Source: Thalassobius vesicularis | GTDB taxonomy: Bacteria; Pseudomonadota; Alphaproteobacteria; Rhodobacterales; Rhodobacteraceae | DNA: 64,000 bases | Direction: 5' to 3' | Assembly (NCBI RefSeq): GCF_004799325.1 | Contig: NZ_SSMD01000004.1 | Span: forward strand, 62,001-126,000 | Shown: positions 8,129-17,396 of the stretch, one piece after another | Position numbering within the stretch: position 1 is the stretch's first letter | How the letters are laid out: each line of letters opens with the position of its first letter | The notes under the pieces: generated by a model | The model's database searches: none | Told to the model about the DNA's origin: nothing | Seen by the model: only the letters and a program-made list of their open reading frames with translations | Program-made: the position numbers and the translations under genes

Positions 8129-8418
8129 GCTGAGATGTCTCGGAGCGTGACAACCTCGGTCAGGCGCACTGCCAGTTGGCCCTTTGCGTCGCCTTCCATT
8201 TCCTCCAACTGGCCGCGGGCAATCAGCCGGTCCCCGATGAACAGCTCGACCTGATCATCGATGCGCCGGTCCAGGGCCAGGACCGAGTTTTCCTGCAAGC
8301 TCAGAAGATCCCGGATCAATGGCCGCGCTTTCCCGACCGAAATCGTGATTTCCACCGGAAGCGCCGAGAACGGATTTTTCTTTTGCGGGTCGGCCGTCGT
8401 CTTTGACGTGTCAGGCAT
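8125..8418 (-). CDS. fliN: Flagellar motor switch protein FliN
   Basis: A 97-residue protein with the SpoA/surface-presentation-of-antigens fold of FliN: LPVEITISVGKARPLIRDLLSLQENSVLALDRRIDDQVELFIGDRLIARGQL. FliN with FliM and FliG forms the C ring; neither of the others is in this window. The start at 8418 overlaps the end of fliH by eight bases and has an AAAGGAAA site upstream; an ATG at 8469 would lie well within fliH. Its stop overlaps the fliP start (ATGA). Confidence 0.93.
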   Translation of the reverse strand: MPDTSKTTADPQKKNPFSALPVEITISVGKARPLIRDLLSLQENSVLALDRRIDDQVELFIGDRLIARGQLEEMEGDAKGQLAVRLTEVVTLRDISA

Positions 8419-9007
8419 GTTTTCTTTTCCTTTCGGCTTCGTGTGTGAAGGCTTCCAGCGCTTCGGCAATGCCGGTTAGAACATGTGTCAGATCAATGCG
8501 TTGCTCTTCGTGATCAGTCGAGATCTCTACCTCTCCCGGTTTCATGTCCGGCGCGGCCTCGATCTTGATCGCGTAGTCGCCGAACTCGCTCAGCGCAGAT
8601 TCCAGGTTTGCGCGATCTGCGCCGGAACATCTCAGCGTCATGTGGTCGCCCAGCTGATCCGCCGCCAGCTGGGCCAGTTGTTCGGCCACGAGTTGCGGCA
8701 GGGATGCCCGGGCGATTTCGGGCAGCAGCGCTTCCGAGATTTGCTGGAAAAGCGGGCGGAGCGATTTCAGCAGTTGCGATTGCGCGTCGTGAAACGTGAA
8801 CGAAAACTGCTGCAAGGACGCGGCAAGATCGGCTTTATGGCGGGCGCTGTCCTCGAAATGGGCGCTGGCAGAGTCGTCCCAGCCGGCTTTGTACCCCTGC
8901 TCGAACGCCTCAAGCTGGTGCTCTTCCAGGGTCGCGTCCGTGATGACCGTTTCGGTGCCGGACCCGTGAAATTTGTCGAAATCCTGAAGGAGGTGAGTGA
9001 TCGCCAT
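8411..9007 (-). CDS. fliH: FliH-like export ATPase regulator
   Basis: A 198-residue, alanine- and glutamate-rich helical protein lying between fliF and fliN, the normal place of fliH. The centre (AFEQGYKAGWDDSASAHFEDSARHKADLAASLQQF) is helical with the GxxxG-like spacing seen in FliH, and the C-terminal part (PQLVAEQLAQLAADQLGDHMTLRCSGAD) matches the FliH/HrpE fold. FliH binds FliI and docks it to the export gate. Sequence conservation of this family is low, so the name rests partly on position. The ATG shares a base with the fliF stop (TAATG). Confidence 0.82.
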   Translation of the reverse strand: MAITHLLQDFDKFHGSGTETVITDATLEEHQLEAFEQGYKAGWDDSASAHFEDSARHKADLAASLQQFSFTFHDAQSQLLKSLRPLFQQISEALLPEIARASLPQLVAEQLAQLAADQLGDHMTLRCSGADRANLESALSEFGDYAIKIEAAPDMKPGEVEISTDHEEQRIDLTHVLTGIAEALEAFTHEAERKRKHA

Positions 9008-10649: not shown

Positions 10650-10664
10650 TTAACAATCGGTTAG
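10650..10664. promoter_or_regulatory. CtrA-like box between fliF and fliL
   Basis: TTAACAATCGGTTAG fits the CtrA consensus TTAA-N7-TTAA with one mismatch. It lies in the short divergent region, 60 bases before fliF and about 45 bases before fliL, where it could control both operons. CtrA control of early flagellar genes is known in Caulobacter and in several Rhodobacterales; here it is inferred from sequence only. Confidence 0.6.
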
Positions 10665-10710
10665 TGCCTCTCGGTCTATTGAGGATTTGTTCAAACCGAT
10701 GGGGGCATTG

Positions 10711-11250
10711 ATGGCCGCAACTGAGACGGATGCCGCGACAGAGACGAAAAAACCTTCGAAAATCCCAATGATTGCAGGGGTTTTGCTGGCTTTGGTCGGC
10801 GCCGGCGGTGGGTTTTACGCGGTCCAGTCCGGGCTGATTCCCTTGGGCGAATCGTCCGAACATGCAGCGCCGGCCGGGGATCATGCGGCGGCCGCTGACC
10901 AATCGAATTTTGCCCTGGCGGCGGCACGCAGCGGCCCTCAGGATTACAAGAATATCGCCTTTGTCCCGATCGAGCCGCTGGTGATCTCACTGGGCACTGC
11001 GGCAGACGCCCGACACCTGCGTTTCCGGGGGCAGATCGAGGCGCCGGTGGTCCACGCGGCAGAGGTCGAGGCGATGATGCCCCGGATCGTGGATGTTCTG
11101 AACAGCTATCTCAGGGCCGTTCAGCTGTCCGATCTGGAGCGGCCGGCCGCGCTAGTGGAAATCCGAACCCACATGTTGCGCCGAATTCAGATCGTCATGG
11201 GGAAGGGACGTGTGAACGACCTTCTGGTGATGGAATTCGTTTTGAATTGA
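10711..11250 (+). CDS. fliL: FliL-family protein, first copy
   Basis: A 179-residue basal-body-associated protein. A short cytoplasmic N-terminus rich in threonine and alanine is followed by one membrane helix (IPMIAGVLLALVGAGGGFYAV) and a periplasmic domain ending in the FliL signature (MMPRIVDVLNSYLRAVQLSDLERPAALVEIRTHMLRRIQIVMGKGRVNDLLVMEFVLN). FliL surrounds the stator and supports torque. The ATG at 10711 follows GGGGGC; an upstream ATG at 10699 and a TTG at 10687 are alternatives. It heads a rightward set with a 124-residue membrane protein, motE, motA and the large secreted protein. A second FliL lies at 19588-20079. Confidence 0.9.
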   Translation: MAATETDAATETKKPSKIPMIAGVLLALVGAGGGFYAVQSGLIPLGESSEHAAPAGDHAAAADQSNFALAAARSGPQDYKNIAFVPIEPLVISLGTAADARHLRFRGQIEAPVVHAAEVEAMMPRIVDVLNSYLRAVQLSDLERPAALVEIRTHMLRRIQIVMGKGRVNDLLVMEFVLN

Positions 11251-11257
11251 GAGAGGG

Positions 11258-11632
11258 ATGAAGATGGAATTTGTTGCTGACTTACTGCTGGTCGCAGGCG
11301 CGCTTGGCGCCGGGGTTTACTGTTTCGTCCTGTCGCGCAGGCTGAGCCGGTTCAACGATCTGGAGAATGGGATCGGCGGGGCCGTCGCTGTGCTGTCGTC
11401 GCAAGTCGATGACCTGACCCAGACGTTGACCTCGGCCCAGAAAGTGGCGGAATCGTCGACGGTTTCGCTGGATGACCTGACGGACCGGGCCGAGCAGGTC
11501 GCGCGTCGATTGGAACTGCTTGTTGCGTCCATGCACGACTTGCCCGCAGCCGAAGCCCCGCCGCAACACAAGCCGAAAACACGCCCCGAGGCGATGTTCT
11601 TTCGCCACGGGCAAGAGGGGCACCAGCAATGA
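11258..11632 (+). CDS. Small membrane-anchored coiled-coil protein of the flagellar operon
   Basis: A 124-residue protein with one N-terminal membrane helix (VADLLLVAGALGAGVYCFVLS), a basic border RRLSRF and a helical, probably coiled-coil segment (AVAVLSSQVDDLTQTLTSAQKVAESSTVSLDDLTDRAEQVARRLELL). It recalls the uncharacterised alphaproteobacterial flagellar-operon proteins (possibly the DUF6468 type), but I do not recognise it with certainty. It starts seven bases after fliL behind a GAGAGAGGG site, and its stop overlaps the motE start (ATGA), which ties it to the stator set. A role in stator or basal-body assembly is inferred from position. Confidence 0.75.
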   Translation: MKMEFVADLLLVAGALGAGVYCFVLSRRLSRFNDLENGIGGAVAVLSSQVDDLTQTLTSAQKVAESSTVSLDDLTDRAEQVARRLELLVASMHDLPAAEAPPQHKPKTRPEAMFFRHGQEGHQQ

Positions 11633-12246
11633 GCAAGAAGAAGGTGCGATATCATCGTGTGGGACGAAGCGCGCTGTCGTTGATCGCGCTTTTCCTGCTT
11701 TGCTCGGGCGTCATTCGGGTCGGTGTGAACAGCGGGCAGGCTTGGGCAAAGGCATCGGAAGTATTGAGCAAAATCGACGCGCCCAAAGAGGCACCGGAGC
11801 CCCATGACGTGGTGCAGCAAGAAGTGTGCAAAACCGATGAGGATCTGCGAGCGGTGTTCGAGGTCCTGCAAAACCGTGAAAAACGCCTGAACGAAAAAGA
11901 TGCGAAAATTACGGAACGTATGGCGATGCTTGCAAATGCAGAGCGCGACATTTCCGTCAAACTCGAAGAGTTGAAGGCGGTAGAGGACGAGCTGAGCCGC
12001 ACTCTGGCGATCGCCGACCAGGCTGCGGAAAAAGACATCGGAAAACTCGTTGCGGTTTACGAAGCGATGAAGCCGAAGGACGCGGCCCTGCTGTTCGAGG
12101 AAATGGAACCCAGCTTTGCAGCAGGCTTTCTGGCGCGAATGCAGCCAGAACTGGCCGCCGGAGTGATGGCGGGCCTCAGTCCGACCGCTGCCTACACGAT
12201 CAGTGCCGTACTGGCAGGACGAAATGCAGAAGCGCCAACTCAATAG
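11629..12246 (+). CDS. motE: MotE-like periplasmic chaperone with MgtE-N-type domain
   Basis: A 205-residue protein with an N-terminal membrane anchor or signal (ALSLIALFLLCSGVIRVGV), a long coiled coil (EDLRAVFEVLQNREKRLNEKDAKITERMAMLANAERDISVKLEELKAVEDELSRTL) and a C-terminal helical domain like the MgtE N domain (LVAVYEAMKPKDAALLFEEMEPSFAAGFLARMQPELAAGVMAGL). This is the pattern of MotE of rhizobia, a periplasmic chaperone that stabilises the motility protein MotC. No gene with clear MotC similarity is nearby, but the large secreted protein two genes downstream is a candidate partner. Confidence 0.85.
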   Translation: MSKKKVRYHRVGRSALSLIALFLLCSGVIRVGVNSGQAWAKASEVLSKIDAPKEAPEPHDVVQQEVCKTDEDLRAVFEVLQNREKRLNEKDAKITERMAMLANAERDISVKLEELKAVEDELSRTLAIADQAAEKDIGKLVAVYEAMKPKDAALLFEEMEPSFAAGFLARMQPELAAGVMAGLSPTAAYTISAVLAGRNAEAPTQ

Positions 12247-12309: not shown

Positions 12310-13179
12310 ATGTTTGGGCTACTTGGGATCGTTGTCATCTTTGCAATGGTTTTCGGAGGCTATATCGCCGCCGGAGGCAAACTCGGGATCATTCTGAAGT
12401 CGCTGCCTTTCGAGATGATGATGATCGGGGGCGCTGCAGTCGGGGCGTTTTTCATCAGCAACGACCTGTCGGCCATCAAGCACACGCTGAAAGATATTGG
12501 GAAAGTTTTCAAAGGCGTGAAGTGGAAGCCGGAAGACTACAAGGATCTGCTTTGCCTTCTGTTCGAACTTATTCGAGTGGCACGAACCAATCCGGTTGCC
12601 TTGGATGAGCATATCGAAAATCCAAAGGAATCCGCGATTTTTTCAAAATATCCCAAGATCTTGTCCGATGGAGAGGCTGTTAACCTTATCTGCGATACGC
12701 TTCGTTCGGCCGCGATGAACTACGATGACCCTCACCAGGTCGAAGAGGTCATGGAAAAACGGATGGAGGCGAACCTCCACCACGCTCTGCATTCCAGTCA
12801 CGCGCTTCAGACCGTTGCCGACGGCCTGCCTGCGCTTGGGATTGTTGCCGCTGTTCTCGGTGTGATCAAAACCATGGGGTCAATTGACCAACCACCTGAA
12901 ATCTTGGGAAAAATGATCGGCGGCGCATTGGTGGGGACGTTTTTGGGCGTTTTCCTAGCTTACGGACTCGTCGCGCCATTTGCCTCAAAAGTTAAGGCAG
13001 TTGTTGAAGAGGATGGTCAGTTCTACCAGCTGATCCGAGAGGTGCTTGTCGCAAACTTGTACAAGCACCCGACCAACATTTGCATCGAAGTCGGCCGCCA
13101 AAATACGCCCTCGCACTGTCGCCCCAGTTTTTCGGATCTGGAAGAGGCTCTTAAGGTTGTCAAGCAAGGGGCGGCATAA
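12310..13179 (+). CDS. motA: Flagellar motor stator protein MotA
   Basis: A 289-residue stator subunit with four membrane helices (about residues 1-20, 33-52, 172-192 and 205-226). The cytoplasmic loop has the conserved charged stretch FELIRVARTNPVALDEHIE, and the third helix begins with the conserved proline in GLPALGIVAAVLGVIKTMG; the fourth reads GGALVGTFLGVFLAYGLVAPF. Length and motifs match the rhizobial/Rhodobacterales type. An AGGAG site lies ten bases before the ATG. Its partner MotB is not in the window. The stop shares a base with the next gene's start (TAATG). Confidence 0.96.
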   Translation: MFGLLGIVVIFAMVFGGYIAAGGKLGIILKSLPFEMMMIGGAAVGAFFISNDLSAIKHTLKDIGKVFKGVKWKPEDYKDLLCLLFELIRVARTNPVALDEHIENPKESAIFSKYPKILSDGEAVNLICDTLRSAAMNYDDPHQVEEVMEKRMEANLHHALHSSHALQTVADGLPALGIVAAVLGVIKTMGSIDQPPEILGKMIGGALVGTFLGVFLAYGLVAPFASKVKAVVEEDGQFYQLIREVLVANLYKHPTNICIEVGRQNTPSHCRPSFSDLEEALKVVKQGAA

Positions 13180-15104
13180 TGAAACGGCTCGTTAAGTTTG
13201 CCTTTATTTTGTCCTTGTTGCCGAGTGTTTCACTTGCAGGCCCAATTGTGGTTCGGACTGGAGAGCACGGAGATTTCACTCGCGTTGTTCTGCATGTGCG
13301 TCCGAACGATTCTTGGAGTTTGGAGTCAGAAGGAAGCCAGTACAAAGTATCCTTTGCAGACAAAAGTGTGGATTTTGATCTTTCCGATACCTTTTCTAGA
13401 ATAGATAGAAATCGGCTGAGCGCGGCAGTCGCTAGCCCCGGCGTTCTTGATCTTACGCTCGGATGTGAATGCGAAATCCAGGCAGAGGAAAGTAGTGGCG
13501 ATATGCTGGTGCTCGACATACGCCCTGCCCACGTTAAAAACGAAACAGACGTGGTTGACGGATCAAAGTCAGAATATCCTCTATTAGAAGAGCAGCAGCG
13601 TTATTCAGAGAGAGTTTCACCGGCTCGTTCCCTAGAAATGCCAACTGATGACGTGGTGAATCCAGACGTCGCGCGATTGGTGAAAGACTCGGAAAGGAAT
13701 TTGATTGAACAATTGAGCCGGGCGTCGGGGTTGGGTTTGGCAAAATTCCAGGCCACACCTACTTTCCCAAATGGGATTGAGGTCAAGGCTGAGGAAAAAA
13801 TCAGCTCAAGCAGTGTCAACCTGAATGCATTTCCCAACCTTGATGAAGAATTAGAAAGAGTGATGAGCGAGGGCAATGCCGGTGCTGCCCAGGCTGCGTG
13901 TGTATCGAACTCCACGTTGTCGTCAATATTTCATGAGTATACGGACGGGTTTTCGGATAGTCTTGCCAAACTCCGAAGTGAACTGGCTGTAGATGGGGAC
14001 GGAGTTGATGAAGCACTTAAACTTGAATTGGCAAAATTGTATCTCAGCTTTGGGATGGGCGAGGAGGTAAAAAACCTTGTTCAATCGACAAAGCAAAATC
14101 AAATGTGGGCGCTAATTTCTGACCTAGCAGACGCCATAACCAATCCGGAAGAGGCAAGCGGTGCATTTGATAAATTCAGGTCCTGTAATTCCGACATCGT
14201 TTTTTGGGCGATTTTGGTTGGTCGGAAAACTTCCGGTATCGGTGGCAAGAAATTGCTATCGTCGACCTCAGCTTTTCTAAAGTTACCTGAGCAATTGCAG
14301 GAGGTTTTAGCGTCCCAGTTTGCTGAAATCCTGATGGATAGGGGTGAGGGTGAATTGGCGCAGACTGTGCTTCGAAAAGCGGATGAAGGGAATGAGCTAG
14401 AAACTCAACTCGGGTTAGAATTGCCTGCGACTGATGACGTGTCAGAGGGTGCCAGGTCTGGTGATGCGCAGATTGCTTCACAGCTGATCGCGAAAAACTC
14501 CGAAATGGCTCCAATGCACCTTATAGATTATGTTCAACGAGAGGTGAGGGTTGGTCGAAATGTCGACATTGAGACGAGTGAGCTTTTGAAAGGCTATTAC
14601 AACCAGCATCGCGGAAGTGATATTTCGGAGGATTTGATTGTGGCGTTAGTGTTGGCTGATTCGAGTTCAGGGCGATTTTCAACTGCATTCAAAATGTTAT
14701 TAGATACAAATATCAAGAATACTGCGGCTTCGAGAATTTTTTTCGAGCAGCTAACGGAAAATGCCTCGGATTATGAGTTTCTGAAGTACATAACTTTGCT
14801 TTCTGAATTTGATCAAGATAAACTTATTCAAGCCAATAGCCAAGCCTCTGACCGTATGCAAAAACTTGGGATATTTGATGAATCTGACAAAGTTCTCTCT
14901 CCCACTGCTAAAAAGTTAGAGGTTAAACTTGAGGTGGAGCGATCAAATGAAGTGAACACACTGGATCATTCTTCTCAGGATCAAAAAGGTAGTGATTTAA
15001 TCACGGAAAGCCCTCTCACTTTTGGAGGGCAACTATTGGGGCAAAGCAAAGAGTTGAGGCGGGTTGTCGCTCAGTCAATGGCGAGGCTGCAGATATCAAA
15101 ATAG
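13179..15104 (+). CDS. Large secreted protein between motA and flhA, possible MotC counterpart
   Basis: A 641-residue protein I do not recognise. It starts with a signal peptide (MKRLVKFAFILSLLPSVSLA) followed by a strand-rich domain of about 100 residues (IVVRTGEHGDFTRVVLHV, QYKVSFADK, MLVLDIRPAHV) that resembles an AMIN-type periplasmic domain. The remainder is helical and rich in Leu, Glu, Ser and Asn, perhaps TPR-like. Base composition is much more AT-rich than the surroundings (22 of 60 bases are G or C at 14701-14760). The start overlaps the motA stop, so it is coupled to the stator. Its place after motE and motA suggests a periplasmic stator partner; this is inference. Confidence 0.8.
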   Translation: MKRLVKFAFILSLLPSVSLAGPIVVRTGEHGDFTRVVLHVRPNDSWSLESEGSQYKVSFADKSVDFDLSDTFSRIDRNRLSAAVASPGVLDLTLGCECEIQAEESSGDMLVLDIRPAHVKNETDVVDGSKSEYPLLEEQQRYSERVSPARSLEMPTDDVVNPDVARLVKDSERNLIEQLSRASGLGLAKFQATPTFPNGIEVKAEEKISSSSVNLNAFPNLDEELERVMSEGNAGAAQAACVSNSTLSSIFHEYTDGFSDSLAKLRSELAVDGDGVDEALKLELAKLYLSFGMGEEVKNLVQSTKQNQMWALISDLADAITNPEEASGAFDKFRSCNSDIVFWAILVGRKTSGIGGKKLLSSTSAFLKLPEQLQEVLASQFAEILMDRGEGELAQTVLRKADEGNELETQLGLELPATDDVSEGARSGDAQIASQLIAKNSEMAPMHLIDYVQREVRVGRNVDIETSELLKGYYNQHRGSDISEDLIVALVLADSSSGRFSTAFKMLLDTNIKNTAASRIFFEQLTENASDYEFLKYITLLSEFDQDKLIQANSQASDRMQKLGIFDESDKVLSPTAKKLEVKLEVERSNEVNTLDHSSQDQKGSDLITESPLTFGGQLLGQSKELRRVVAQSMARLQISK

Positions 15105-15120
15105 TGTTTCTTGCATAAGC

Positions 15121-15135
15121 TTAACGCCTGGTAAA
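15121..15135. promoter_or_regulatory. Possible CtrA-like box before flhA
   Basis: TTAA-CGCCTGG-TAAA resembles TTAA-N7-TTAA with one mismatch, in the 213-bp AT-rich gap before flhA (15105-15317). The rest of the gap shows no gene; its low GC content makes a chance match more likely than at the other sites. Confidence 0.35.
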
Positions 15136-15317
15136 CTTTACGCGGTTGCCAGCGATGGATGTTACTCCAAGACAACGTAATTGAAATGCAAATATCCATT
15201 GCGAAAAGGCCAATTTTTACGAAATTTTTATTGTCTGATCTCTAATATTTTGATGCTGGAGACGCTGTAATTAATTGGGAAAATGAGATCCATGGTCTTA
15301 ACAAAGGAAGTGAAAGC

Positions 15318-17396
15318 GTGAACTTTCATAAGTGGATGCTTAGACCCCCGGTTTTGCTCGCGCTCGCTCTCATGGCAATCATCGTTATGATGGTTTTGCC
15401 GGTTCCAGCGTTTGTTTTAGACGTTGGCTTGGCGGTTTCCTTTGCGCTTGCCATTCTCATATTTACAATGACGCTTTTTATAGAAAGGCCTTTGGATTTC
15501 TCATCTTTTCCGACGGTGCTGTTAGCATCTTTGATGTTGCGACTTTCGCTAAATGTATCCTCCACCAAGCTGATTATCGGAGAGGGCCACACGGGTACTC
15601 GCGCTGCTGGAAATGTTATCGAAGGATTTGCCAACTTTGTAATGGGCGGCAACATTTTTCTTGGCTTGGTGGTTTTTGGCGTTCTCTTGATCGTCAATTT
15701 CATGGTGATAACAAAGGGCGCCGCACGAATGGCGGAGGTTGGCGCTCGTTTTGCATTGGACGGTATGCCTGGCAAGCAACTTGCCATCGATAGTGACATG
15801 TCTGCCGGTGCCATTAACCATGCAGAGGCGCGCGAACGGCGGGAACGCGAACAGCTCGAGACTACATTTTTCGGGTCGCTCGACGGTGCTTCGAAGTTTG
15901 TCAAAGGGGACGCGGTAGCTGGCCTTCTGATCACGCTTTTGAACTTGGTTATGGGATTGATCATGGGGGTCGCTGTTCACGGCATGCCCGTCTCAACCGC
16001 GTTTGAGACCTATGCGATTTTGACTGTCGGGGACGGTCTGGTGACCCAAATCCCGGCTGTGATTATTTCGATCGCGTCCGCCCTGCTTCTGGCTCGGGGC
16101 GGTGCGATTGGGGCTACGGACCTGACTTTGCTCAAACAAATGGGGGCACATCCGACCGCGCTGGCGACGGTTGCAACGATTATGTTGCTGTTTGCGCTGG
16201 TGCCAGGCCTTCCTTTCCTGCCTTTTGTTCTCGGTGGGGGCGGCCTTGCATACGCGGCCTTTCATTTGCACCGAAAGCGCCAGGCTATGGCAGTGGACGA
16301 ACAAGTGTCGGCACCGGAACCTATCCCGCGTGACAAGCCGATCGCTGATATTCTCGCCCTGGAGGATATCCATCTCGAATTTGCTCCGGACCTAGTGAAC
16401 ATGGTTTTGGATCCGGCTACGGGACTGGATGTTCGCATTTCCAACATGCGAACGCATGTGGCGAGCGTTTATGGGCTTATTTTGCCCGAAATTCGCCTGA
16501 CGGATGAGCCCGCATTGCCCTCCGGCTCGTATGTGATCCGGATTCAAGGGGTAGAGATTGCGCGCGCCAAACTGCGTTCCGAAAAGGTTTTGGCTCTCTT
16601 GTCCGGTGATGCAAAGGCGTTGCCGGCGGGTGAAGACATCGCCGAACCGGTCTACAACGCTCCTGCGCGATGGCTTGAAAAAACGGACCAGGAAGCGGCA
16701 GCACTTGCGGGTGCAACAATTGTCCTACCGGCCGAGGTTCTTGCGACCCATCTGCTTGAGGTGGTCAAACGCAATTTCAGCAAGTTGCTGACATTCAAAG
16801 CAATGCGCCGATTGCTGGATGAAATGGTTAACCAAACCGATCGCGCCAGATCTGAGGCAAACCGCAAACTGCTGGATGATCTGATCCCTGAAAAGGTGCC
16901 TTTCGAGACCTTGCAAGGCGTGCTGAAGCAGTTGCTGGAGGAACAGGTATCGATACGAAACCTGCCGCTGATCCTTGAGGCGATTGCCGAAGGGCGCGCT
17001 TTCAGCCCGAGCATCGACATCATCAGCGAACATGTTCGGCAAAGGCTGGGATTTCAGCTGGTTGCGGGGCTGAAACGGGCAGACGGTACGATCCCCCTCA
17101 TTCAACTCGCGCCAGAATGGGAAGAAGCGTTCACCGCATATCAGCTGGACGGAGATATCGGCGGCAGCAATGTTGCGCTTCCGCCCGATTTATTCAATCG
17201 GCTGGCCAGCAACATGTCGGAAAAGGTGTCCGAGGCAGCAGATCGGGGGATCTTTGCGGCTGTCGTGACCTCGACGCAGCGGCGCAGATTCTTGAAAACG
17301 CTGGTAAAGGCCAAGGGAATTTCGGCACCGATCCTCTCATTTGATGAGATCGGCCTGGAGGCCCGCCCCACCCTAGTCGGGGTCGTCGCGCCGTGA
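15318..17396 (+). CDS. flhA: Flagellar export gate protein FlhA
   Basis: A 692-residue FHIPEP-family protein: eight N-terminal membrane helices, the conserved cytoplasmic loop RMAEVGARFALDGMPGKQLAIDSDMSAGAI (about residues 142-170) and a four-subdomain cytoplasmic C-terminal half that forms the nonameric docking ring for export substrates. A GTG start is used, preceded by AAAGGAAG; no ATG fits better. The stop overlaps the fliR start (GTGA), and flhA-fliR-flhB plus the next small gene form one tightly coupled unit. Confidence 0.96.
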   Translation: MNFHKWMLRPPVLLALALMAIIVMMVLPVPAFVLDVGLAVSFALAILIFTMTLFIERPLDFSSFPTVLLASLMLRLSLNVSSTKLIIGEGHTGTRAAGNVIEGFANFVMGGNIFLGLVVFGVLLIVNFMVITKGAARMAEVGARFALDGMPGKQLAIDSDMSAGAINHAEARERREREQLETTFFGSLDGASKFVKGDAVAGLLITLLNLVMGLIMGVAVHGMPVSTAFETYAILTVGDGLVTQIPAVIISIASALLLARGGAIGATDLTLLKQMGAHPTALATVATIMLLFALVPGLPFLPFVLGGGGLAYAAFHLHRKRQAMAVDEQVSAPEPIPRDKPIADILALEDIHLEFAPDLVNMVLDPATGLDVRISNMRTHVASVYGLILPEIRLTDEPALPSGSYVIRIQGVEIARAKLRSEKVLALLSGDAKALPAGEDIAEPVYNAPARWLEKTDQEAAALAGATIVLPAEVLATHLLEVVKRNFSKLLTFKAMRRLLDEMVNQTDRARSEANRKLLDDLIPEKVPFETLQGVLKQLLEEQVSIRNLPLILEAIAEGRAFSPSIDIISEHVRQRLGFQLVAGLKRADGTIPLIQLAPEWEEAFTAYQLDGDIGGSNVALPPDLFNRLASNMSEKVSEAADRGIFAAVVTSTQRRRFLKTLVKAKGISAPILSFDEIGLEARPTLVGVVAP

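Follow-up and report, generated by a model that had tools for sequence, protein, structure and literature searches.

Among the closest described systems is the fla2 flagellum of Cereibacter (C.) sphaeroides. Its operon, fliL2-pflI-motE-motA2-motK, includes the gene of MotK. This protein of 652 residues has a signal peptide of 24 residues and then an AMIN-like N-domain of eight strands, the rest being TPR-like, and the published description gives no conserved-domain match for it; the family name dates from 2024 (PMC10954123). According to the same account MotK is periplasmic and is required for rotation but not for flagellar assembly: motK and motE mutants build flagella but are paralysed and do not swim, and both can be complemented. 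MotE binds MotK as well as MotB2, the binding between MotK and MotB2 is weaker, and MotK reaches the flagellated pole in dependence on MotA2 and MotB2. The interaction results reported there include no contact of FliL2 with MotK or MotE (PMC10954123).

For the fla1 system of Phaeobacter (P.) inhibens, a published table gives the order CP2-CP3-motA-CP4-sltF-flhA, with sltF between CP4 and flhA (PMC12363192). CP4 (PGA1_c35690) is one of the genes for which several immotile insertions are recorded, 6 in its case, and the CP4 mutant still releases FliC, FlgK and FlgE, with fewer flagellar proteins than the wild type (PMC12363192). The lower release may indicate a role in assembly as well. For CP2 and CP3 mutants this source reports that flagella were not seen, which differs from the C. 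sphaeroides motE mutant, where flagella are made.

PflA of Campylobacter and Helicobacter is described as an N-terminal beta-sandwich, termed AMIN-like, followed by a loop linker and a TPR superhelix; it forms spokes to the stators, is a partner of FlgY, which is a MotE relative, and works with PflB, and a preprint states that its sequence is not conserved (PMC12222027, PMC11870540). In a 2026 review it is proposed that the E-ring is made of MotE and that MotK and MotC resemble PflA. MotC of Sinorhizobium (S.) meliloti is, by review description, a periplasmic MotE partner consisting mainly of TPR and reportedly without an AMIN domain. Caulobacter genes are reported to have no BLAST similarity to motK but to have AMIN-like structure in common with it (PMC10954123).

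The window studied here is a stretch of 64,000 nucleotides from Thalassobius vesicularis. On its forward strand, an ORF of 641 codons with an ATG start occupies 13179..15104, between motA (12310..13179) and the same-strand gene flhA, which starts at 15318, 213 bp further on. The motA gene ends in TAA and the final A is the first base of the ATG, so that this position and the one-base overlap stand as they had been read from the DNA alone. On the same strand, the ORF and motA are preceded by fliL (10687..11250), pflI (11258..11632), whose gene position is that of P. inhibens CP2, and motE (11629..12246), which encodes an E-ring family protein with an MgtE_N match slightly below the Pfam cut-off. 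The order fliL-pflI-motE-motA-motK is the published C. sphaeroides order. The divergent genes fliF, fliH, fliN and fliP lie to the left of this stator operon, and flhA, fliR and flhB to the right. The CtrA box is TTAA-N7-TTAA; a perfect copy occurs 0 times in the window, and by eye a TTAA-N7-TTAG, one base off, was seen at 10650-10664, where fliF and fliL are separated. The genome has one motB, which is on a different contig (G000:C1, about 472,900-478,800; locus L206), beside ORFs that we take to be flgE, flgK, flgL and flgI, flgE/flgK-like matches having been found. The flagellar cluster is thus split.

The best explanation overall is that 13179-15104 is very probably motK of a Rhodobacterales flagellar cluster. 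The protein aligns with a 652-residue MotK (locus L088, genome G082) over 615 columns in BLASTP at E=3e-28 and 24% identity, and a profile of 17 homologues matches that MotK in hhalign at E=3.4e-69. In L088 the ORF is exactly 652 aa from an internal ATG, 24 residues precede the mature start, and the operon is the same; from the ORF length, the 24-residue signal peptide and the gene order this locus is taken to be that of C. sphaeroides. The two proteins are alike in their place behind motA, in an N-domain of eight strands that is AMIN-like, in TPR-like helices and in length (641 against 652 aa), and window MotK begins with an apparent signal peptide. They differ in sequence, at 24% identity for L088, and in that sltF, present between motK and flhA in C. 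sphaeroides, is absent from the motK-flhA gap of the window (15105..15317, 213 bp, GC 0.38, no strand), which is the sltF site in other members. In L088 this lytic transglycosylase gene is found at 8245-8922, between motK and flhA. A search of the genome from which the window derives gave only a 38% match to sltF, covering residues 33-186 within a 1083-codon frame on another contig. CP4 of P. inhibens holds the same gene position as motK of the window, and it is equated here with MotK by gene order; the words MotK and MotE occur 0 times each in the main text of PMC12363192.

The sequence-only reading had assigned the protein to no recognised family. This is right for Pfam and NCBIfam, where the window protein has zero families at E<=1, and wrong in so far as the MotK family has been named since 2024. 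Window MotK does not reach the curated cut-off of the Pfam AMIN, AMIN-like and TPR models, whereas Pfam TPR models do match some of its homologues. MotK looked novel because its sequence changes very fast.

The predicted fold of window MotK is AMIN-like plus TPR-like. The signal peptide, plain by eye as the earlier reading had it and in keeping with the secretion of published MotK, covers residues 1-20 (13179..13238) and reads MKRLVKFAFILSLLPSVSLA before a cleavage site, also placed by eye, that is followed by G; in the model residues 2-12 form a helix. An AlphaFold2 model built from an alignment of 79 sequences has a mean pLDDT of 80.5 and contains eight strands in residues 23-116, a low-confidence linker, helical repeats and a long C-terminal helix; with a pTM of 0.41, the relative placement of the domains is uncertain. 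By model and fold search the AMIN-like beta domain with its eight strands comprises residues 21-117 (13239..13529), and the TPR-like helical superhelix residues 254-596 (13938..14966) with a low-confidence break at 406-422. The modelled linker between them, residues 119-240 (13533..13898), includes one predicted helix at 162-184. Alignment and model place conserved Ser623 and Arg627 in the C-terminal helix (15009..15089). All these segments are encoded on the forward strand. When residues 21-119 were modelled alone and without an alignment, eight strands were obtained again (pLDDT 80.1).

A structure prediction with fold search, which the sequence-only reading had proposed, placed AMIN proteins (AmiC, PilQ) and TPR proteins at the head of the list. 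The top VIA-align matches were AmiC (Z 11.5, rmsd 2.3, 96 aligned), a chain of the type IV pilus machine (Z 11.2) and PilQ (Z 10.8), which agrees with the AMIN-like first domain claimed earlier. TPR proteins came next with Z 10.7 and lower, values in a range (8-11) that repeats may score by their common arrangement. Against PDB chains, the sole Foldseek match at E<=0.001 was 9hmf_K, from the periplasmic motor scaffold of Campylobacter jejuni, with E=1.6e-5 but a TM of 0.15/0.14 and an rmsd of 46. Chain K of 9hmf is probably PflA, as we presume from its length together with the structure paper. In a comparison of the family profile with the sequences of solved structures, the best 60 of 102 matches were led by the TPR protein SRP72 (E=4.2e-4), the others being weak and mostly calmodulins, and PflA was not among these 60. 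The modelled protein starts with the AMIN-like beta domain and continues with the linker and then the TPR superhelix, an order that agrees with the published descriptions of PflA.

Conservation of the place behind motA was examined with MotA as bait, because window MotK is too divergent for a single-sequence search: a contig search with the window protein alone returned 63 pattern-matching stretches, of which 0 were confirmed. Of 499 confirmed places in named genomes the best 80 were kept. A profile-positive ORF directly follows motA in 78 of these 80 named Rhodobacterales loci, and the two misses are contig ends, 1821 and 900 bases past motA. When the nearest start codon is chosen, motK overlaps the stop of motA by either one base or four in 76 of the 78; in the other two it starts 3 (L092) and 8 (L131) bases behind the stop. 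Matches to fliL, pflI and motE are present in 75 of the 78 loci and absent from the fetched flank of L114, L139 and L145. At locus L043, BLAST with the window protein finds no motK, and a 737-codon frame after motA begins like the MotK family; this locus was left out of alignment A1. The single window sequence found a match in 23 of 61 relatives, and the MotK profile matches 212 of 296 Rhodobacteraceae genomes sampled. motK is an ordinary member of its operon.

The sequence-only reading also held that the gene may be fast-evolving, and the comparison with MotA bears this out. Among the 79 sequences, pairs with MotA 80-85% identical have a median MotK identity of 26%; for the 71 pairs with MotA 90-95% identical the median is 46% (range 26-59). 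The extreme pair is that of the window with SP161 (L092), the nearest of its named relatives, with 91% identity in MotA and 26% in MotK. Selection was estimated from 13 homologue pairs that are more than 60% identical, a set to which the window sequence does not belong. For motK the median dN/dS is 0.12, taken over the 7 pairs whose dS is below 1.5, and for motA it is 0.0095 (13 pairs), so motK is constrained, about tenfold less than motA. Close motK pairs are under purifying selection. Since homologues are in place at 78 of the 80 named loci and the median dN/dS of the 7 homologue pairs is low, 13179-15104 is not a chance ORF.

That the window gene is decaying, with AT drift and divergence as signs of a loss of function, is extremely unlikely. 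The window pair does have the lowest MotK identity among the 71 pairs with MotA 90-95% identical, window MotK is without the matched C-terminal repeat block found in longer relatives, and the AT-rich gap of 213 bp follows directly behind the gene. Yet the frame of 641 codons is intact, MotK of C. sphaeroides is equally short at 652 aa, and dN/dS indicates constraint, though as measured in relatives and not in the window lineage. All invariant columns of alignment A3 are retained as well, although by definition, the window being its first row. Decay is unsupported in view of the intact frame and the low dN/dS of the homologues.

The GC content of motK is below that of its neighbours, as had been noticed: GC (GC3) is 0.46 (0.45) in motK, 0.52 (0.61) in motA and 0.55 (0.60) in flhA, against a GC of 0.623 for the whole window. 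A foreign gene recently acquired into the stator operon would explain this, and the difference in GC3 between motK and motA, -0.160 in the window, is near the extreme of the relatives (mean -0.062, sd 0.043, n=78), 1 of the 78 being as low. However, GC3 declines already in motE (0.63) and motA (0.61), reaches its minimum of 0.38 in the last part of motK and is 0.52 at the start of flhA. The dip is a gradient from motE into early flhA and is not confined to motK. The relatives, moreover, share both the place and the start overlap. An absence of the gene from related genomes could be held in favour of acquisition, since 7 of the 8 other genomes of the genus have no match to the single window MotK. 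Among these eight genomes (G001-G008), FlhA is only 34-37% identical in five, which therefore carry a different flagellar system, gives no match in two, and is 81% identical in G005, where motK is located after motA. In G005 (loci L038 and L039) the stator operon lies about 70 kb from flhA on one contig, so that the order is broken directly behind motK. Acquisition, which the sequence-only reading had offered, is very unlikely and is rejected as the main reading by the homologues that 78 of 80 named loci have at this spot and by the GC gradient over several genes. The low GC of motK probably reflects local AT drift and not import.

A wider family becomes visible at the level of the class. When 241 genomes of the class were scanned with a profile of 79 MotKs, 109 gave a match at E<=0.001, and 106 of these belong to families other than that of the window; the remaining 132 gave no match, so the link is by no means general. 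The first 20 of the 106 in the table, which are the best-scoring, were taken as a distant sample; many weaker matches (E 1e-3 to 1e-6) lie outside it, and the perfect context of the sample may fail for these. All 20 matching ORFs have a motE match upstream of them on the same strand, and fliL is present in 19 of the 20 fetched stretches. In most of L185-L203, motE and the long gene of MotK type are separated by at least one further ORF, about 200-270 aa in size. The ORFs of L197 and L200 are missed under the default filters of HMMER and match the MotK profile, at E=7e-18 and E=4e-19, only when the filters are off. Of 420 shuffled or reversed copies, none reached E=1e-3, the best being 1.9. With L184 left out, the other 19 distant ORFs align with the MotK alignment in hhalign over 407 columns (E=1.3e-34), and in a one-sequence search an HMM of these 19 finds window MotK at E=1.9e-15, through both its AMIN-like and TPR-like parts. 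These long proteins, like Caulobacter CC_2058, which was compared by description, resemble window MotK in their place downstream of motE and in their AMIN-like and TPR-like regions. They differ in length, 19 of the 20 having 978-1354 aa and L184 having 750 aa, and in the two AMIN-like matches found in 11 of the 20; most match the TPR-like or C-terminal part too. MotK, the long CC_2058-type proteins and, by fold, PflA probably belong to one ancient family of motor spokes. The Rhodobacterales version of this E-ring spoke, which would be widespread in the class, would be shortened, coupled to motA and very fast-evolving. Priority for the link between MotK and the long proteins is not claimed.

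By analogy with these systems a function can be proposed for window MotK. The protein would be exported via Sec, after which its AMIN-like domain could touch peptidoglycan or a partner. The TPR-like superhelix would act as a spoke linking a MotE ring, which encircles the MS-ring, with the stator units, where it may recruit or hold MotAB as PflA does in Campylobacter. The sequence of MotK could drift fast because selection retains only the fold and a few contacts. The MotE-linked periplasmic stator partner that had been suspected at this position fits the published MotK (PMC10954123), and the analogy with MotC, drawn at the same time, is reasonable in function. An alternative that takes this analogy further, in which MotK is mainly a chaperone client stabilised by MotE, contacts MotB by itself and forms no spoke, is unlikely. 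It has a precedent in S. meliloti, where MotE stabilises MotC according to the review, but in C. sphaeroides the dependence is reported to be reversed, MotE being unstable without MotK and MotK stable without MotE (PMC10954123).

With the identification of 13179-15104 as motK, a false unknown is removed, as a gene that is common in Rhodobacteraceae (212 of 296 genomes sampled) and has no Pfam or NCBIfam family is MotK. The protein is already named in the literature, and the window gene adds a member. In the one species dissected, C. sphaeroides, MotK is reported as a required part of the motor (PMC10954123). The comparison also joins two literatures, on MotK/MotE of C. sphaeroides and on CP4/CP3 of P. 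inhibens, that are unconnected in their main texts. If the class-wide profile link is true, the profile could let annotation pipelines name several hundred hypothetical proteins, and the function of an E-ring spoke would become testable in easy alphaproteobacterial hosts.
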